Origin: Larus michahellis
Lineage: Eukaryota; Chordata; Aves; Charadriiformes; Laridae
Reading direction: 5' to 3'
Length of the DNA: 64,000 bases
Assembly (NCBI RefSeq): GCF_964199755.1
Contig: NC_133896.1
Span: 82,551,815 to 82,615,814, forward strand
Shown here piece after piece: positions 1 through 56,670 of the stretch. The number at the start of each line of letters is the position of its first letter. The stretch's first letter is position 1. Both the position numbers and the translations under genes were made by a program. A model generated the notes under the pieces. It was given only the letters and a program-made list of their open reading frames with translations. It was not told the DNA's origin and searched no databases.

Positions 1-1326
1 TTTGCCTTGTGTTTTGCTGTACGGGGGGAACAAACATATGGTCAGTTTAGGAGTCTAGCCTGATGGACAGCAACTTGTTCAGTCACGATAACTCAGTTTT
101 GATTGCATGTCTATATTCTGAGGCATTTCATTTGGAATGTGTGCCACCTAAATGATAACTCTCTTAAGACTTAGGCTTTTTAATTGAGAAATTGTGGTCA
201 TGAGATAAATTTGTTATAGGGAAGAAGACAGAAGGTACTAAAAAACCCTGCAGGTATGAATGAGGGCTGCAAAGTTCCAGAATTTTAGCTTGTTTCCAAA
301 GTATGTGTATCGACCCCAGAATTGTGCTAAATCAAGTTGTTGAGAGGCAGCTGTCATCCTGAGTATCTTGCAATGCAAATAGATTCTACCATGCCAGATG
401 TTACCATCTGAAGAACTTTCTTAGGGTATAAATACATGTCTTCTGATCTCACTGGTAACAGCAGTAGAAGTTTCTGCCTCTTCTGTCTTCACTAGAGTTT
501 AATGCTGCATCTATTTTCTGTGGACTTCACAGGTTCATGTGGTGGCTTCTAAGCTGTTTGGATCAAAATAGGCCTTTTTAGCAGATAGCAGAGACTTTAT
601 ATGTCAAGCTCACCTACTGGGAATGACAAGCAGCAGGGCCAGTTGGGCCAACCAATGAGGAGTCATGCATTTAGTCAGTTCTATCATATGCTGCTTTGAG
701 CTGTCTTTGAGAGAAACTTGAGGCTTTTCAGCTTTATTTGAGGGATGTGGTGTAATGGATCAAGTCATTTCCCAGGTGATTACAGTTGCAAAAACTCCTT
801 TTGCACTTTCATGTGAATACTGTGATGTTTGCTGTATAATGTTAAAGGCCTACCGCATTCCATTTTGGAGAGTTTCATCTTGCAGAGGAAGAACAAAGAA
901 AGCTGATACTAGCTGAAAGAACAAGTCTTGTTCAAGTGCAGGATTTACATCTGTTTTTATAGTACGATATTCCAACTCAGAAGTCTTTATCCCATGGGGC
1001 CAAAGAATCCCCAAAAGTTTTATGATAACCTAAGTTGTTCCCCAGGCACTGGTACAATGGTTGTTATATTTTGGTAAAGTTCATAGTAAAAATCTCCCTA
1101 TCCTGGCTGTCAGTATTGGTACTTCAGAGGACTGTATAGCTGTCTGTTTGCCATGTGCGTGATGTTATGGGCATCTATTGAGAAAGCCAACAAATGGACC
1201 AGCTTGTCATTTGTCAAGGTATTTCTCTATGATCTGAACATCTGCCTTCTGGGTGTTTGTGAGGCTGGTTCATTGTCCACAGGCAACTGTGAATATAAAA
1301 CACTACTACTGTTCTGGGATCAGAAC
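1..1326 (+). other. RIMKLB: Intronic sequence of RIMKLB (upstream intron, part 1)
   Basis: No coding block was found here. The first RIMKLB exon in the window starts at 5667 with an intron acceptor and enters mid-protein, so everything to its left should be the preceding intron. I looked for the missing N-terminal part of the protein in this stretch and did not see it. The sequence is AT-rich and has no obvious repeat. Confidence 0.6.
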
Positions 1327-2452
1327 CACAGAATGATAGGGGTTGGAGGGGACCTCTGGAAATCATCTAGTCCAACCCCCCTGCCAGAGTAGGGTCACCT
1401 AGAGCAGGTTGTACAGGAGCATGTCCCAGCGGGTTTTGAATGTCTCCAGAGTTGGAGACTCCACCACCTCCCTGGGCAGCCTGTTCCAGTGCTCCAGCAC
1501 CCTCAAAGCAAAGAAGTTCCTCCTCATGTTTAGATGGAACTTCTATGTTCAAGTTTGTGCCTGTTACCTCTTGTCCTGTCACTGGGCACCACTGAAAAAA
1601 GACTGGCCCCATCCTCCTGACACCCACCCTTTGAGTATTTATAAGCATTGATAAGATTCTCCCTCAGTCTTCTCTTCTCCAGACTAAAAAGACCGAAATC
1701 CCTCAGCCTTTCTTCACAAGAGAGGTGTTCCAGTCCCATAATCATCTTTGTAGCCCTTTGCTGCACCCTCTCCAGCAGTTCCCTGTTCTTCTTGAACTGG
1801 GGAGCCCAGAACTGGACACAGTACTCCAGGTGCGGCCTCAGCAAGGCAGAGTAGATGGGGAGGATGACCTCCCTCAACCTGCTGGCCACAGTCTTCTTGA
1901 TGCACCCCAGGATGCCATTGGCCTTCTTGGCCACAAGGGCACGTTGCTGGGTCATGGTCATACTGTTGTCCACCAGGACTTCCAGGTCCCTTTCAGATGA
2001 GCTGCTCTCCAGCAGGTCAGCCCCCAACCTGTACTGGTGCATGGGGTTATTCCTCCCCAGGTGCAGCACTCTACACTTGCCCTTGTTGAATTTCATAAGG
2101 TTCCTCTTTGCCCATCTCTCCAGCCTGTCCAGGTCTCTCTGTATGGCAGCACAGCCTTCCAGTGTGCCAGCCACCCCCCCCAGCTTTGTGTCATCAGCAA
2201 ACTTGCTGAGGGTGCACTCTGTCCCTTCATCCCGGTCATTGATGAAGATCATTACTGACCCCTGGGGAACACCACTTGTCACAGACCTCCACCTAGACTC
2301 TGTGCCCCTAATCACAACCATCTGAGCTCTGTCTTTCAGCCCGTTTTGAATCCACCCCACTGTTTATTCATCTGACCCACATTTCCTAAGCTTCCCTATC
2401 AGGATGCTGTGGGATACTGTGTCGAAAGCCTTGATGAAGTCAAAGTAGACTA
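1327..2452 (-). mobile_element. CR1 LINE, 5'-truncated, antisense to RIMKLB
   Basis: The left edge reads as the reverse complement of a CR1 3' tail (cagaatgatag, then the TTGGA..GGACCTCTGGA..ATC..TAGTCCAACC block). On the minus strand, 2360-1530 translates to the C-terminal part of CR1 ORF2: [19 protein letters not shown] (the reverse-transcriptase FADD box), [10 protein letters not shown] and [12 protein letters not shown] are all visible. A few codons of the box preceding FADD are missing, and the frame breaks in the last third. The 5' truncation falls near the YFDF..KAFDT block at about 2450. It is an old, inactive copy inside the RIMKLB intron. Confidence 0.93.
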
Positions 2453-10023: not shown

Positions 10024-11459
10024 GTAGGAAAAGCATTGTTCATAGTTTTGATCAGAATTTTTAATCCAGTTGAAAAATCACAAACCCAACTGAAATAAGC
10101 TGCAGATTTTATTTTGCATTAATTGTGCTTACTGTTGGAGGTTTACAGAGGAGACATGGGAGTGAGGATTAAGTGAGAGATGTGTTGAGCAAACAGAAGG
10201 AGAGATAATCTCTGCCCAAAGTATTAGATGGATAGCATGGATGAAAAGGAGGGGAAAGGTCTAGGAACACAAATGGAGTAACTGATATGGCAGTGTCATG
10301 CTAATGCCGTGTTATCATTCATTTCATCCTGTTAAGAGGAATAAAAAAGAAGGAAGACAGAAGACAAGACTGAGAGAGGTGGAGGAGACAGTTGGCAAGA
10401 GGGTGAGAGAAAGTGTTAAGGGAGGAAACTATTGAAGGCAATAAACAGTTGGATTGAATTGTGCAGCTGCTGTGCTGCCTTAAGTCTTTCAGACTCCTCC
10501 CTGAAGGCATTTCCCCCAAAGACCATGTCTGGGAGGAAGAGGAGAGTTACTACATTGATTGTAGCATACTCAGAACTGAGTTTCTGCATAACTTTGGGTG
10601 TAGGACAAGGGGGTTTGTGAGGGTAGAAGGAGGGTTGAGGGTGCCTGGCTGAAACTGTACTGAAACTGAGCAGGGATGGGATAAAATGTGTTCATGTGTA
10701 GTACAGTTTTGGCTAGTCAAAATGCCCAAAATGCCTGAGAGGTTTTAGTTACTACTCGATGCTGAGGATGTAAAGCCTGAAAGATTTTTCTGCTAAATGC
10801 TTTTTTGTTTTTTATTGTTTGTTTTATGTTTTTTTTTGAAAACTTAAATGTGATAGATGAAGTCTGAGTCGGTTAATACTTAGATGATGGACTGTGAACT
10901 GGACCAGCTGAGATTCAGATGCAAATGTTCCCTAATTCTTGCTTTAGAGACAGTAACCTATGATAGCAAGCTGAGAGGGACATGAGTAGATTATAATGTC
11001 TTAAACCTCTTCCCCCTCAATTATATCTGTTAGAGCTGTAGTCTTATCAGGAACATTTGGTTAAATTTTGCTGAAGGATTTCTTGTGATGGCTTAAAAAT
11101 ATGTATGAAAAGCCTCTACCTTAAAAGAAACAAGGGTGTTTGTTAGGTCATCTTTTTTCTATCCCAAGGTCATAAAAATCTATGACACCTTTCTTGACTA
11201 AAAAGTCACTACTTACTGTTTTTTAAACAAGTCATAATCTTGACCTGCCTTTGGCAGTTCAGAATCTTTTGAAATCCTGCTGTGGCTTCAAGTTCATTAG
11301 TAGTCACCGTGGAAAGGAGGTTGCTATCTGAGTCATCAGCAGTATCCTTGCAGGCTCGCTTTGGAGCTTCCCAGCCAAAAAGCACCAATCATTTGAGAAG
11401 GATGTCAGTCAGCTGTGACCAGACTACAGACAGCAAGCTTTTTTTCCTTTTTTTTCCAG
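10024..11459 (+). other. RIMKLB: RIMKLB intron
   Basis: GT..AG intron of 1.4 kb, phase 1, ending in a long pyrimidine tract (ctttttttcctttttttttccag). No other feature seen. Confidence 0.85.
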
Positions 11460-11923
11460 GTGGTGTAGGTATGATGTGCTCGCTGAGTGAACAAGGCAAG
11501 CAGTTGGCAGTCCAAGTGTCAAACATCCTGGGGATGGACGTGTGCGGCATTGACCTGCTGATGAAGGACGACGGTTCATTCTATGTCTGCGAGGCCAATG
11601 CAAATGTAGGTTTCATTGCCTTTGACAAGGCTTGTAATCTAGATGTAGCTGGTATCATAGCGGACTATGCCGCTTCTCTCCTTACCCCCGGTCGCTTGAC
11701 GCGGCGCATGTCCTTGCTCTCTGTGGTGTCCACGGCAAGCGAGACTAGCGAGCCAGAGCTGGGCCCTCCAGCTAGTGCCACTGTCGACAATATGAGTGCT
11801 AGCTCCAGCTCTGTCGACAGCGACCCTGAGACCACGGAGAGAGAGTTGCTCACCAAGCTCCCGGGGGCTCTATTCAACATGAACCAGCTATTAGCCAATG
11901 AGATCAAACTTCTTGTGGAGTGA
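11460..11923 (+). CDS. RIMKLB: RIMKLB terminal coding exon and stop
   Basis: The acceptor cag ends at 11459 and the stop TGA is at 11921-11923. The exon encodes [20 protein letters not shown], then [20 protein letters not shown] and [20 protein letters not shown]. These complete the ATP-grasp fold; the E/N of CEANANVGF match the RimK metal-binding residues. The remaining about 80 residues form a low-complexity Ser/Glu tail ([20 protein letters not shown]) ending NEIKLLVE. The tail carries RRMS-type serines that could be phosphorylated (inference). Confidence 0.96.
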
Positions 11924-29300: not shown

Positions 29301-32300
29301 CGTCATCACTGTTATGGAGCTCCTGCTGGTTTTTACACCGGCCGAGTTAGCTATGTTTGCAAGTTTAGTCACTACTTGAGACCAAAGTGGCGTTGAAGGC
29401 GTGTTATTCTAGACTGTACAAAAAGATGAGCCTAGTGTGGAAGGCCTACAGTCAAAGCAGATGACAAGGTGGAAGGACACGGGGAAACAGCATGTCAATA
29501 ATTAGTTGTTACAACACATCTGCGATGCAGTGACAGCTGCTCATTCTGCTTTAAGATCCATCGGATTGAAAGATGGAAAACGACCAGAATTTTGGATGTT
29601 GGCTGGCTACTCTGCTTCGCGTGCATCCTGTTTTTCACCCTCATATATGGAATTATTGCCAAGAGTCATACCTCCTTGGCAGGTAGAAACTGTGGACGTC
29701 TGTTCTTGAGCAGGTAATGTATTTCCTAGCCTGCACACTGACAAGAAGTGTAGTGGTGACCCTTCTTCCCGGGCTGAGTTGCCACAGTTTTCTTTGTCAC
29801 ATAGGGAGCTCCTGGTGAGCTGCATGCAGCTGAAGGTGCCAGCAACAAAAGTGAGGACGCAGTCACCTGGAATTTAATGTTAAGGACACTGTGCAGGCCT
29901 GCTTTTGGTGACCAGAACTCACAAAGTCACATCAGGTCTCCGCATACAGTGACACTGAGCTCTTCCGCATGGAGTATACAGTGTGTGTCAAGGGAATGCG
30001 TTTGTGGTGCTCTGTGGGAAATGATTCAAAGTGCTTAATTTCGTCAGTGCCTCCTGACTGCAGAGAAAAGAGAAGGTGCTCAAAACTTACAGGATGAGGC
30101 TGTAGCTGACTTTGAACATGGAGGAGGGAAAGAAAAGAATGTGTTCTTAAGGCAGACAGGTCTTGCAAAATTACTTCTCGTAGCCATCAACTTTTACTTA
30201 AATTTCCATCTCTTTCCCGTAGCTCAAATGATGGGTGTTTAATATCACTGCATTTGGTGTCCCTTGGAGCGAAGCACACTGAAGTGCATTGTTTTGTTTG
30301 TATACAGTTGGCAAGCAGGTCATAGTGAGTGTGTGTTTGCTTTGGTTGCCTGGAGAGTTCAGCATCTTCTAATTGCATGTTTTCATAAGTGTTCTTTAAC
30401 AGATGTAACCCTTAGGAGCTAGCATTGCGAGCATGAGAAGCAGGCTGGTTTGGAAGCAGATGTTGTGAGCCCAGAGTGGTGAAGGGCCCAGAGAGGTGAA
30501 ATTCATGCTCATATGCAGTCCCACTCTTGGAAGCTTTTTCTACAGTTCCTGCCTTCTTCATTGGTTTTGGAAGCCCTCCCGATGTTCTAGATACATGCTG
30601 TCTGAACGCACCTCCTTAAGGCAGCAGTATTCCCGTCGTTGAACTTCTGATAAAACCTGGCCTAATACTGCACTTCTCTTTTTCATAGAAAGGGTGTGGG
30701 GTCATCAGTGTTCAGGACAGAGACGCATTGAACCAGTGCGTGGGAAGTGCTTTTAGAGTTTGCTGATCGTGTCTGTTCATTCGGTTTCTTTTTTCCAGAA
30801 GTGATTTTGTTGCAGGCACCTACTGCTGCAGTGGCTGGTGTTTGAATGACATCTTCCAAGGAGTAAGATGTGAATTCCAACATCTAACTGTGCTGGATTT
30901 GGATCATATTTTGCCAAATGCACTTTGGACCCATTAACTTCATGGAGAGTAGTAGTACGCACTTACAACCTTGAAAAAAGTCAAGCCCAAGATGTCTGAG
31001 TCCTATATTAACAGATGCAACTCGAAGCGGAGATCACTTTTCTTTATTTCTGTCGGCATACATAGTAAATACAAGATACAAGGCAATATATCGTACCACT
31101 TCTCAATGGGTCTAATTTATCCCTGGGTAAATCAGTCAGTTTCCAAGGATGCGATGGATAAAAAACATCTCCGATAGTATGAGTTAGTTTTCTTGAGGTT
31201 GTGTTTCCCTCTGCTGGCATGTAGTTAATACTGCCGACCTTTTTTTCTTTTTTTCTTTTCAAAACCAAGCTTCAGAAGCTACTGCTTCCTTGTAACCCCA
31301 AGAAAGATTTCAACTATCATCTTTGGTGACCAAATATAGCATATTAATCAGAACAAAATGAAGGAAGAAACAGCAACAGTGCTAATCAGTGACCCAGTCT
31401 ACATGTAAAGTTGGCTGTGCTTTGAGCAGAACGTTGGACTGTTATGACTTGCCAATTTTTCTGAGTGTGATATGCATACTACCTTTTTTGAGGGGGAAGG
31501 AGTTAGACTGAAGAAGCGAAACAACAATTTTCAGAGTCTCCTGTTTTTATTCATCTAGGGTAATGAGTAATAATAATTTCATAACCCTCAAACTAATATT
31601 TTTGAAAATTCATACTGCTGTCTGGCATGATCTGCTAATCTATGTTACACGGAAATTATAAATTTCATCTGAACATTGGTTGCTCTGCATGTTTAGATTA
31701 AAAAAAAAATCTATGAAATTACAAGTAGCACTATTTTAAAATCCATTTTATCAGTTTCCATTTGTAAAACCGCTACAGATGGTTCTTAAACAAAGATTGA
31801 AACTAAGTCAGTCCTTCGGTTGTTTAGAAACTGAGGTGCATAGATTTGCAAGTGAGTAATAGTAACGATTTCCTGAAACTCAAATGGAGTTTATGCGCAT
31901 GTATGTATGTTTACATGAGTAGAAGCTAAAGCCATACTTTCTTGTAAGTAGCAATATTTAATAACCACGATGCCCCCATAAAAAATTGTTAGGTTATATA
32001 GTCTGGATAGGCCACAAATCTGTTTTCAAGTTACTCATAGAGAGTTTTAAACTGTACTTTTCTCTACCTTGTTTTTATTATTTAGATTTTCATGCCTATA
32101 GGAGCGGTATTTCTTGGAGCTGTTTTGCATATGCAAATTTAAAAGCTTTGCTTTTGTTCACGTGATTGTACTGTACTCAGAAGAGGAAATTCCGTAGAAA
32201 GCTCTTTCAAAGCTTTTTGGAATACTGTAGCAGTTTCAAGTACAGGCCAGGTCTAAGCCCTTACAGCTTCCATGCTAGAAGATGTATTCAATGTGTGTGT

Positions 32301-33286
32301 ATGACTTAGATGAAATCGCAGGGTGTAGATCTAGCAGAGGCACTGCAAAAGTCATACCTAATGTCTGAGATGTTCAAGAGGGTGAAGTTAAGAGGATAAA
32401 AGCTGATGCTTGTAACCTAAAGTTTTGTTACGAACAGAACATGCTGCGTTGATCATCTTGGTATCTGTCTTAATAGGACTAGAGCACAAGATCGACAGAC
32501 TGGTGTCCCTCCTGTGGCCCAGCAACACTAAACTCAGCATCGAGTGTGGTAGCCATGGCCTCTCATTCCCAAATTGCCTGGTGGTGGAGGAAGAAGAAAG
32601 GTTGTTACTCCCTTTCAAGGTGCTGAGAACCTTTACCTCTGTTTCTTACTTTTACAATGCCTATGCCATCAAGGTATAGCCAAGTGGGGTGGTGAAGACT
32701 TGTGAAGGTCTTTCTGTTGAATCTACAACTGCATAGAAAAAAGAAATGTAAGGCTTGGAGCCAAAGAAGGAGGAAATAAGAGGAGTTCTGACTCCATATG
32801 CTAGGATGAAGAAATTTTCTTGCTGTGAGTGATGAAGGCCTGAATTTTTCTAAAGTCCCCTTAGAATGTCCTCCTTAATAGGTTAGAGAATCAAACTCTC
32901 TTTGGTGTAATAAATCTTGTGTTTGTTGCTGCACACCTGCTAATTATGTCCATGGAGATCAGCTCTTTGGGTTAATTGCTCGTGGGAGATTCCTTTTGCC
33001 TTTTCCGTCAGAGGGTGTTCTCTGAGCCATCTATTGCTAGTTGAGATAATGGCAAAAACAGCCACAGGAGATACTCTGAATGAACAAGGAGGCAGTATCA
33101 GAAATGGTACGTACTCCTTGGATGAACCAGGTACCTGAATGAGCAATCTCTACGTGAGTTCTCTTGTCACTTCTCTAGGGAAAAGAGGCTGTAGAGACAG
33201 CCCCTTCAAGACCTTGGGGTTTTGGTTTTCAGAGTCATAAGGACCCTTCCTCTCTCTCAGCCATCCGAAAGACTTCAGATGATGGG
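20389..33286 (+). other. Intergenic, no supported gene
   Basis: About 13 kb without a coding block that I can defend. A TTTG tetranucleotide run is at 22214-22238 and a poly-T at about 26403-26419. On the minus strand between about 26.3 and 31.3 kb, several 60-125-codon frames have protein-like composition (for example 27503-27255, Lys/Arg/Gln-rich). They share no frame, have no family match that I know, and are interrupted repeatedly. At 33079-33096 the + strand reads NEQGGS, which may belong to the DIRS-like remnant further right. Confidence 0.4.
22214..22238. repeat. (TTTG)n short tandem repeat
   Basis: tttgtttgtttgtttgttttgtttg, about six units with one interruption, in intergenic sequence. 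Confidence 0.85.
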
Positions 33287-33713
33287 ACTTACAAACCTTA
33301 TGAAGAACGACTGAGGGAGCTGGGGTTGTTTAGCCTGGAGAAGAGGAGGCTGAGGGGAGACCTTATCAGCCTCTACAACTACCTGAAAGGAGGTTGTAGA
33401 GAGATGGGGGCTGACCTCTTCTCCCTGGTGACAAGTGATAGGACAAGGGGAAACAGGTTCAAGTTACATCAGGGGAGGTTTAGATTAGATATTAGGAGAC
33501 ATTTTTTCACTGAAAGGGTTATTAAACATTGGAATAGGCTGCCCAGGGAGGTGGTGGATTCACCATCCCTGGAGGTGTTTAAAAAAAGGGTAGATGGGGC
33601 ACTTAGGGACATGGTTTAGAAGTGGCTCTTGTCAGGGTAGGCTAAAGGTTGGACTCGATGATCTTAAAGGTCCCTTCCAAACTCAACAATTCTATGATTC
33701 TATGATTCTATGA
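33287..33713 (+). mobile_element. CR1 LINE 3' fragment, sense
   Basis: Starts at about the YEERLRELG block and keeps the end of ORF2 open from 33326 to 33619: [20 protein letters not shown], then [20 protein letters not shown] and [20 protein letters not shown]. The short 3' UTR contains TTGGACTCGATGATCTTAAA and ends in three copies of the ATTCTATG octamer unit at 33689-33713. It is a relatively young-looking, strongly 5'-truncated copy. Confidence 0.95.
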
Positions 33714-34199
33714 CTTGCAAGCTGATCCAAGTTCATCAGAAATGAAAACAGCAGTCCTTTGGGATATCTGTCAGCTTGAATATTTGTGACAGTTTAGTTG
33801 GTCATACTTCAGAGAGTTTTAGATGTCAGTGAAGTCAGAACATTAACAGCACCAGTCTGCTGATAAGAGTCTGGAAATCTTTCCTACCCTTTCTGTAGTG
33901 GAAAGAAGAGAACAATGTTTACCTACAAAAGAGCACTAGAGCCTGCTAATCCTCCAGTCACATCATTTCCTGATACGTGGAGTTTGATCAAAAACAAATT
34001 TCAGGCTTCACATAGGTGTCTGTGGACTGAAAGCTGTTATGGCTGTTGTGTGAATCTTTTATTCAATTTGGAAAAGAAACATTTTGTGTCAAAGCCTGGA
34101 CTATCTAACAGCCTTAAGCAAGCAAGGGGAATGAAACCATTTGTGTTAGGAAGCTAACATGTCTTGAGAACTTAAACATCAGTAAATCAAGTAAATTCA
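33714..34199 (+). other. Unassigned sequence between CR1 and the DIRS-like remnant
   Basis: Holds an 80-codon open frame (33915-34157) of no recognised family. If the NEQGG motif at 33079 belongs to the same retroelement as the block from 34225, then this segment and the CR1 separate two parts of it. That is not shown. Confidence 0.3.
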
Positions 34200-35990
34200 C
34201 TGGCTATGCATCTCTGCAGGGGGGGCAAGCATTTGGCAGACCACCTGTGTTTCCCGCGAATGATCTCTGCAGGTGTATTTTGATCATCAGTGTAAGGTTA
34301 TCTAAGACCATCCCCCTGTTGAAAAAGTCAATTCTATTACATTCAGCAATAGTATGGCCTGAGATTAATTTAAGATGGTTTTCAAAGTGAATCCCAAAGC
34401 TACCTATTGTACCCCAGTTATTCCATAGATGTTTATCCCTGAGGTGGACCTCCTTGTGACCAAAGACAATGCAGATTGTCTTCCTTTGTTCTCAGGAACA
34501 GAGTAGCTCAATATTGACAGCAATATTGACAGAGTTTTCCTTAGCTGGTACACACCATCTCTTGGAATTCATGGAGATTAGGCAAGACAGGGCTCGGGTA
34601 ATGGTATTAGTTTCTGCTTAACCCTGGTAGCTCTAATTTTTATATTCTCTGTCCACGCAATCACCAGAAGTCAGTACTGCTATCCCAAACAATGGTATGT
34701 TGCAGAATTTAGAATTGCTGGACCATCAAGACGGATATTACTCAGCTCATGGTGTGCAGCGTATCTGAACGACATCTATGGGAAGAGATTGCTTTACGGA
34801 TACCTAGAGAATGCTACTGCAAAGCTTTTCTGGGCCACAACTTAATGCTCTTAAGTGGAAATATTTTTCAAAGCTGAAAAGAAAGCATGTTAGACAATCT
34901 TCACTTTCAGTTACTCTGAAGTCTTTGTCACTGTTAGAGCCTATTTTACAGTAGAGAGAGGTACATTTGACAGCAATATCTGCCTGACACTTTTCAGTAC
35001 AACATGAATTCAGTTTCTCAGACCAAACCTTTATTGTCTAGCCAGGAAGATTTCATTACTATAGGACTTCAGGTCAGTCAAGGCTTGATAAAACCATTGT
35101 TTGAACCACTATTTTCTTCTGCAGTCTATTATTAATCAATGAAGGCAACTTTATAGTGGCTATTACTTCAGCTTACAAAGACAAGCTACATGTCAGTCTT
35201 TCCAAAGTACTCCATTCAGAGACATGAAACATCATCCCACATTTATCTAAAAAAAATGGTGCTAGACTTTCACAATGATCAAGACGTAGGAATGCCTTTG
35301 CTTTTAAGGTGTTTTGTTTTTCCTCTTTCTAATCACCGTGAAGTGAAGCAAAGCTGTCCCATCAATGTAAATACGTATTCTAAGCACAGAGACTCAAACA
35401 GAATAAGGTCCCTTAGCACGTTCCTTGTTTACATCTCCTTCTGACAGCACAGAAAATTTGGATCAGAGGCTAACAAAATGGATTGCACATCTAGTTGGAA
35501 AAGCCCATGCTGTAAACAAGCTGAATCTTCCACAGCGTGGCCCCCAAAGCGGTTTAAAGAGCTGCTGCAAACATTTACCAACTAGTTGTAGGGAGGGTAG
35601 TATTCAGTAGGGAGGGTGGTATTCAGATGAACTCCCAGCTCAATGCACTGACAAGATTTTTGTTAGCTCATCATGGTAAGTGGGATCTACAAAAAAAAAA
35701 AAAGATTGTTGTTGACTTCCAAGACACGTTGTTCTCTTCCTGTTTTCCGCAGGTGAAAATCCCATGACCCATTCTCCTTTTCCTCAGGTTGTTATTTTGG
35801 CATTAGGATTCTAGAGAAATAAGAATTGAAGACGGAAGGGGTTATTCTACTCCTTACCGCTTGGGAGGGTAACACAAGAGCGTGTTGGTGACGTATGTTA
35901 CCCTTGATGCAGAAATCTTTCCGAGCTACTGCGTGTGGGACTCTCGTGCATCTGCAGATGCTCAAAAAGCAGTAGCCGAACATTCAGGCA
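34200..35990 (+). mobile_element. Degraded DIRS-like (tyrosine-recombinase) retrotransposon remnant
   Basis: Ordered pieces of a DIRS-type polyprotein can be read on the + strand, with shifts and stops between them. (1) 34225-34290: an RNase H tail, in which the decayed sequence fits a former LADxLSR-E-SL block. (2) 34437-34497: PEVDLLVTKDNADCLPLFS, resembling the DIRS PE[VI]DLFA...N...LF block. (3) 34574-34618: EIRQDRARVMVLVSA, very like the DIRS K-IRQDRARVILIAP linker, followed by a broken WP..W. (4) 35150-35173: FIVAITSA, the start of the tyrosine recombinase (usually AITSA[KR]R). (5) 35256-35297: MVLDFHNDQDVGMP, like the PK.VS.FH..QD..LP block. (6) 35470-35508: LTKWIAHLVGKAH, like the L.RWI...I..AY block before the catalytic H..R, which is lost. 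From about 35750 to 35990 the sequence is non-coding and resembles a DIRS terminal region. Matches are from memory of family motifs, not a search. An alternative is some other YR element such as Ngaro. Confidence 0.62.
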
Positions 35991-37515
35991 GTTCTTCTTC
36001 AAGTGATGGTTTTGCTGTTCCCACTGGTTTCTAGGCTGAGCGCGCTCCCATGCCCTACCTTGTTCCCCACCTTTGACTGGTTTTCCCTGAAGAAGCCAAG
36101 AGGCTTCTGGACGTATCTAAACTTCCCAGTGATTTCCCCTGCTTTCCCTTTAATTTCCAGTCCCACAGTTTATGGTTCTTACCTACTTCTGTGGCCTAGT
36201 CTGGCCTTTTGCAATCGCTGCTTTCAGCCTGTCCTCCACTAATTCGCTTTGTGTGCCTCAGGGCGGTGCTTTTGACACTTCTGAGGTTGAGTCTGACGTT
36301 TGCCTTTCATGTGCTCTCTGCGTGGTGATGCAGAGAGGTGAGTGAGCATTCAGAGCAGGCAAGGCCAACTCCTTGCTCAGCACAAGCATTTGCTTTCTTG
36401 CTGTTGATGCTACATCTGTCCTCGCTTCTGGAGCACTGAAAAGGAATTTGTTAAGTTGCTGTGTGGCGATGGTACACGTAATGGGTTAGTCAGCGCTAGC
36501 GGAGAGGCTTCAGCAAGCTGTTAAGCGTTAACACGTTCTGATTGAGCCTGTGCTCATTTCTACGCTGCAGTTCCTATGTGAATGAGTTATAAGGAAGAAT
36601 CATCAGAAAATTTTTATGTTAAAATTCAACATACAGTTCCCAATCTTCGTCCTCGGGAAAGGGTGCGCCTTTTGGCAGAAGCTTCCAAAAATTTGGAGCG
36701 AGGAAGATGCGTGCCCTGGAAAACGTCACCCAGGATTGATGACTGCAACTGAAAACAGCTTGTTGTAATGAAGAGAACGAGCTTTAATAAGATGTACTAC
36801 AGATTTGCTTGTAGTTACCTGGATTTGCCAGTCAGTTGTGGCCTGCAGTATCTTATCTAAGGAACATGTTTTGCATGGTCTGCATGTGTGCAAACACACC
36901 CTACGGTTATTCCACAGGCAGACTGAACCCCAAGTTTGCTCAAAAGCAGAGATAGCAGCCATGATTATTTGATCTCACTAGGCAATCCCTTCTGCAACAA
37001 TAACTGCTCAGCCCTCGTGTAAAGAGGGCATGTTTACCTGTAGGGCACAACTATATTGGTCACATTCCTTCACTCCAGAAAACAGGTGTTTCTTAGGGAG
37101 CAAACTGACGGGTGGTTCCTGGTTATCCACACTTGAGAATTTGAGTGGAGCCAGCTCTGGGCAGAGGTGCTGAGTGCTAGGTATTTTGCTTAGGCTGTAG
37201 ACAAGGAGAAAGAGGATTATAAAAGCCCAGTAAAGAAATTCTGTAGTAAAGTGCTCCCTTTTTATTATCTGATGTGATTCCCTGACTTCAAAACATCTTT
37301 TGTTCTTGCTGATTGATTCAGTGTCCCAACCCATTATTTGTCTGCAGCTGATCTCATTTTGCTTTGAGGCAGACAAGTGCTTTGCCTTCAAATTTGTCTG
37401 TCTTCCAAATCTATTGTCTGCAATATCTGATTATGCCTTTGTAGTCCCTAAATCCTAACAAAAATTAAACTGTAAAATTATCAATAGTTAGTTTCAGGCA
37501 AAGTCTTGAATTAAA
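35991..37515 (+). other. Intergenic, nothing recognised
   Basis: No coding family, splice-bounded exon or named repeat was seen. The open frames on both strands (for example 37391-37008 minus, 127 codons) have no recognisable motifs. Confidence 0.45.
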
Positions 37516-56263: not shown

Positions 56264-56432
56264 GCCAACAGCCTCTGTGACCAAATGCTTCTTGAGAGCC
56301 AGGCAGTACATCTTCATAGGTGGCAAGATCATCCAAATGGCTGTGAAGTGGATGGCTGGGAAGCAGCAGGACAAGCTGCTGTGCAGAAGCCGGGCAGCTC
56401 TTCCCCACGCTGCAGTGTTGCAGCCAGGAGGC
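56264..56432 (+). pseudogene. A2ML pseudogene block (SVTKCFLRARQYIFI..VKWMAGKQ)
   Basis: Acceptor tctcctag ends at 56263. It reads ASVTKCFLRARQYIFIGGKI, then IQMAVKWMAGKQQD, decaying into ALPHAAVLQPGG. This matches AFVTKCFGQAQKFIFIDPKNIQDALKWMAGNQ and LLHTAMKGG of the thioester-containing domain. KWMAG is specific to A2ML1 rather than A2M (KWLSQ-type) or ovostatin (WLATKQ). Confidence 0.92.
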
Positions 56433-56670
56433 CTGCCCTTGCTCACTAGTCTTTCTCCATGGCTGGTGTAAACTTTGGCGGAGGCCTGTGTTTGCTTATG
56501 TATCCATACTAAGAGAGAGAGAGTAATAAGTAGCAACGTGGTTTACCTCTTGATGAGTATTTCTCTGAACACCCTAATCCTGCTGTTCCATGTGACAAGC
56601 AGGGTATGAGAAGTGAGTGTATTCGCTCCTCTTCAGAAGCAAGTTCTGGAACCCTTTGGAAGAAAGACCT

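Follow-up and report, generated by a model that had tools for sequence, protein, structure and literature searches.

The window, a stretch of 64,000 nucleotides from Larus michahellis, probably contains a dead and heavily mutated fragment of a DIRS1-like retrotransposon between 34.4 and 35.6 kb, to judge from its ordered peptide remnants. This fragment would keep coding remnants of two parts, methyltransferase (MT) and tyrosine recombinase (YR), which follow one another on the + strand as in an intact element (Table 1). Live DIRS elements are copied by their own reverse transcriptase, and their DNA form is inserted by a YR and not by a DDE integrase. From the present fossil no protein function is expected, because the reading frame is broken throughout; we infer its membership of the DIRS family, its old date and the loss of all function.

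Table 1. Putative DIRS1-like fossil, adjoining segments and gag-type open frames (window positions, except where a contig, C1 or C4, is given)
Feature	Position	Strand	Basis
Presumed CR1 3' end with ATTCTATG tail repeats; adjoins the fossil, not part of it	33270..33715	+	similar to six other window regions
Possible end of an RNase H domain, 5' of the MT motif	34230..34435	+	tentative, by eye only
Putative decayed MT-like part of a DIRS1-like pol (PEVDLLVTKDNADCLPLFS and EIRQDRARVMVLVSA)	34436..34745	+	translations, DLFAS, MT length; right boundary putative
PEVDLLVTKDNADCLPLFS	34438-34494	+	translation
EIRQDRARVMVLVSA	34574-34618	+	translation
Putative decayed YR part (GLIKPLFEPL, FIVAITSA, MVLDFHNDQDVGMP, LTKWIAHLVGKAH)	34760..35620	+	motif order compared with simulation; boundaries putative
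GLIKPLFEPL (sixth piece, added here)	35082-35111	+	translation
FIVAITSA	35150-35173	+	translation
MVLDFHNDQDVGMP	35256-35297	+	translation
LTKWIAHLVGKAH	35470-35508	+	translation
Non-coding stretch, could hold 3' terminal and internal complementary repeats	35621..36060	+	weak inverted repeats
705-codon open frame with LAP2alpha domain	C1:31893479-31895596	+	Pfam
685-codon open frame with LAP2alpha domain	C4:94622273-94624330	-	Pfam

A sequence-only reading had proposed a tyrosine-recombinase retrotransposon fossil of the DIRS type on the grounds of six short motifs. The five peptides it named are all present letter for letter in the translations of the + strand, between 34438 and 35508, whereas its sixth motif bore no name and GLIKPLFEPL is supplied here in that place. 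The order and spacing of the peptides on one strand are likewise borne out, except that PEVDL precedes EIRQ, which had been given first. From the first peptide to the sixth, the frame reads 1, 2, 0, 2, 0, 1 (position mod 3), which makes a minimum of five frame changes over three frames; stop codons also lie in between. Within the YR part, the four pieces are separated by three of these changes and by several stops.

Concerning the MT-like part, the series PEVDLL...EIRQ...VLVSA extends from 34438 to 34618. PEVDLL resembles DLFAS, a pol motif specific to DIRS1-like elements according to the accessible part of PMC2685390; the window reads DLLVT at this place, with two of the five letters identical. 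In Anolis, domain lengths of 300-320 bp for MT and 900-940 bp for YR are given in the available text of PMC3266345, and the fossil, with its MT-like part followed by the YR-like part over a span from 34438 to 35508, agrees with the DIRS1-like layout and with these lengths. The window peptide AITSAYK is without the arginine expected in the YR box, which counts against the assignment to DIRS.

The same YR pieces, taken alone, do not separate the groups of YR elements, such that an Ngaro or Crypton remnant has to be weighed in place of a DIRS1-like one. Cryptons are without pol, which counts against the second of these, and the only match to Phage_integrase at E 10 or better in the entire genome remains below the cut-off and is situated elsewhere, in a DUF3504 frame. 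Ancient Ngaro fossils exist in human, 28 of them of pre-amniote age according to the portion of PMC9004415 at hand; against such an origin, the MT-like piece precedes YR here, and MT is the mark of DIRS among YR retrotransposons in the accessible part of PMC4157794. Another kind of YR element is thus quite improbable, and the DIRS1-like identity is preferred.

The chance level of the motifs was assessed with five loose patterns scanned over the window: A, P.[VIL]DL; B, FEP[LIM]; C, [VILAFS][IVL]TSA; D, [DE]FH..Q; and E, [LIS][ST][RK]W[IV]. Patterns B, D and E have a single + strand occurrence each, which is at the fossil, and the same strand carries A four times and C three times, with one of each at the fossil; the - strand carries A twice, B and C once each, and neither D nor E. 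The spaced triple B-C-D, a loose YR core, was found in none of 300 simulated 64-kb strands of order 1 (pairs: B-C 1, C-D 1). Among 2000 strands of order 3, the pairs B-C, C-D, D-E and A-B came up 0, 2, 0 and 8 times, and the triple did not occur. By a hand estimate from the single-motif rates of the order-3 simulation, about 4e-7 triples are expected per 64-kb strand, a figure which is optimistic because the patterns stem mostly from general background on DIRS elements and were relaxed once the window sequence was known. The evidence from the simulated strands for the YR core is therefore good but not decisive.

These figures bear on the possibility that scattered peptides have simply been recognised in ordinary intergenic DNA. 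Short motifs, some of them chosen post hoc, with neither a profile match nor a second copy in the genome, would suit such a coincidence; an ordered and correctly spaced core in 0/2000 simulated strands argues against it, as do similarities longer than the patterns, which lie within 216 bp (GLIKPLFEPL, FIVAITSA and MVLDFHNDQDVGMP, with their presumed likeness to DIRS). Chance is accordingly regarded as unlikely, and the DIRS1-like interpretation is retained.

The profile searches add little to either side. The sequence-only reading had named the lack of any YR-retroelement match in a profile search as grounds for giving up the DIRS identity and, taken to the letter, this lack is what was found in Pfam, PHROGs and PDB. 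The identity draws on the ordered motifs and their spacing. As these three libraries are not known to us to include any model for the MT or YR of DIRS, the negative outcome says little. In Pfam, none of ten proteins (nine single-frame pieces of 33867-35610 and the neighbouring CR1 frame) and none of eight others (seven upstream frames and the PEVDL frame) exceeded the cut-off, the sub-threshold rows of the single-frame pieces (E 0.015 to 0.23) belonging to unrelated families and being taken as chance. Three read-through proteins had no relevant match in Pfam (one row at chance level, E 0.2), two had none in PHROGs, and the YR read-through piece had none in PDB. No better match to another family appeared in Pfam, PHROGs or PDB, or in the DNA comparison with the window and the genome, and Rfam yielded nothing in the window at gathering score. 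The Pfam family Dam has no match in the whole genome, compared with one of the 14 control genomes. In IMG/VR, a search aimed at a DIRS protein gave no relatives, and a further one gave nothing; of 20 stretches obtained there, 15 carry one similar protein and none is DIRS-like by eye. A GTDB search with the same aim gave two bacterial records.

Upstream of the MT-like part, neither RT nor RNase H is detected by Pfam in the seven + strand frames of at least 50 codons in 30601-33290 or in the two in 33867-34390. By eye, neither of them is recognised in the + frames of 30601-33290, as far upstream as 30.6 kb, although a decayed or truncated copy would look alike.

Apart from the window, an open frame of 516 codons with DUF3504 and the sub-threshold Phage_integrase match is situated at offset 523-2073 (+) within C1:54353859-54357056; it is probably a Crypton-derived host gene.

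Concerning the ends of the fossil, the non-coding part had been read as resembling a DIRS terminal region, which could not be confirmed: its best inverted pair measures 16 nt at 81%, and a hand estimate puts the number of equally good pairs expected in DNA of this length at about one. The hairpin folds of two pieces near 35.9 kb do not go beyond those of shuffled sequences (z -1.31, 23 of 200 as good; z -0.92, 37 of 200). Neither the coding pieces nor the tail have a second copy in the bird's own genome (an assembly of 1.405 Gb in 616 contigs, with the window at C1:82551815-82615814) among the best first-pass candidates, which alone were scored. The left end of the fossil was not located; on the 5' side, the ATTCTATG tail repeat of the neighbouring element, which we take to be a CR1, lies at 33689-33713, and CR1-like repeats with such tails are frequent. 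The placement of the fossil between RIMKLB and A2ML1 is broadly right: an exon with a RimK domain is found at 11273-11920, whereas the other side is represented within the window only by a weak match to a thioester domain (A2M/complement type) with an internal stop at 56268-56555. Beyond the window, at C1:82.63-82.92 Mb, thioester-domain matches form a large cluster.

The ratio of observed to expected CpG is 0.24 in 34200-35600 as against 0.25 in the window, and this depletion at the window average, together with the stops, argues against a young insert. A different date for the same DIRS identity, namely horizontal transfer into birds at a late stage followed by decay, would find support in the less depleted segment at 35840-36060, where the ratio is 0.63 (nine CpG observed) and short inverted repeats occur. 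Such an arrival is nevertheless unlikely, given that about 1.1 kb contains five or more frame changes and numerous stops; moreover, the detection of just one copy, with a decayed gag-like piece elsewhere, is what long-dead families would leave. It is plausible that the fossil is instead a relic of archosaur age or older.

The statement that DIRS elements are not generally reported in birds agrees with the literature, as far as the accessible parts of four publications go: they were not detected in bird genomes (PMC5753468), chicken has none (PMC5006616), they are widely distributed except in birds and mammals (PMC9210276), and they are absent from mammals and birds (PMC7786948). The consulted portions of PMC5486457, PMC3783388 and PMC7561263 add nothing decisive. 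For human, Frith 2022 (PMC9004415) describes, in the text available, DIRS fossils that date back to tetrapod and pre-amniote times, a number of which were initially discovered in alligator or turtle, and attributes the patchiness of DIRS to ancient loss of activity. Given human fossils of pre-amniote age in that part of the source, ancient fossils in birds would be expected rather than startling. Among the open-licence PMC papers listed and the texts consulted, no report of DIRS fossils or of DIRS-gag genes in birds was found.

A second line of evidence comes from the gag side. The LAP2alpha domain is derived from the gag of DIRS1-like elements according to the accessible part of Abascal 2015 (PMC4495291). 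A genome-wide search with its profile, PF11560, gave five places at E 10 or better, two of which exceed the cut-off of 25 bits, and no match in any of 14 control genomes (bacteria and archaea). These two are long open frames on C1 (46.3 bits, E 4.8e-12) and C4 (30.5 bits, E 3.2e-7). In PDB, where the C1 frame alone was searched, it matches 2v0x (LAP2alpha) at E 1.2e-11. Aligned with each other over 263 columns, the two frames are 24% identical (E 6e-12). TMPO itself has its marker domain at C1:51880825, away from the C1 frame at 31.89 Mb and the C4 frame at 94.62 Mb, such that neither of them is the TMPO exon and this identity was rejected. An AlphaFold model of the LAP2alpha-like stretch was set aside (mean pLDDT 50.5).

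In the C4 frame, an ATG is found at codon 3, beside a CpG-rich stretch (observed/expected 0.86-1.20 over the 1.75 kb before the frame) in which we recognised by eye words presumed to be YY1-like and NRF1-like; this stretch could also reflect subtelomeric composition, the end of the contig being some 0.17 Mb away, or the promoter of another gene. The C1 frame exhibits, by eye, an acceptor-like tract just before Met95, although codons 48, 52 and 53 also encode Met, and its CpG ratio of 0.14 argues against recent insertion. Both frames have poly(A)-signal words after their stops, at about 25 and 140 bases, and the C4 frame has one soon after its stop. With 276 possible stop-making changes in the C1 frame and 235 in the C4 frame, the chance of encountering no stop would be 1e-4 and 4e-4, respectively, at a neutral divergence of 10%, a value assumed and not measured; freedom from stops does not by itself prove selection, as the null rests on the chosen divergence. 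The likeliest explanation is that the two frames are co-opted gag genes of the host.

Around the gag-like places, a scan with loose RT, RH, MT and YR motifs, which a decayed pol could escape, met with scattered single hits and no ordered set. A tblastx comparison of the fossil with the gag-like flanks gave nothing better than E 0.11, and a gag search of the window itself produced nothing at E 1 or better. The domain of the C1 frame, used as a query, found five more weak places (E 0.2 to 7.6). They include the decayed gag-like piece at C19:13197149-13197361, which two related queries detect, weakly in each case (E 1.59 and 1.24).

The two LAP2alpha-domain frames lend independent support to the past presence of DIRS-type genes in this lineage. 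We incline slightly towards the view that birds keep DIRS fossils and have co-opted gag at least twice (C1 and C4), independently of the mammalian LAP2alpha, with the fossil of the window as a pol remnant of the same vanished population. If this is true, the status of DIRS in birds would turn from 'absent' to 'extinct but fossilised and partly co-opted'.

Compared by published layout with the DIRS1-like elements of sauropsids and other vertebrates (Anolis, turtle and Xenopus; DIRS-1a_Amnio in Repbase), the fossil is alike in the order of MT and YR, in the spans of these domains and in the resemblance of its motifs, whereas it is short and broken, and no RT, gag or terminal repeats were recognised in it. 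With the DIRS fossils of human, alligator and turtle, as described in the accessible part of Frith 2022 (PMC9004415), it shares the condition of an old, frame-broken amniote fragment; those fossils were obtained by a frameshift-aware search with E-values, and table 1 of that source includes no bird. The two open frames, for their part, carry the same DIRS-gag-derived domain as the LAP2alpha exon of mammalian TMPO and an isoform of ZNF451 (PMC4495291, in the portion at hand). They differ from the mammalian LAP2alpha exon in lying outside TMPO and in being long single open frames, with no host protein identified of which they would form an exon, and would serve as comparators for the mammalian LAP2alpha domain.
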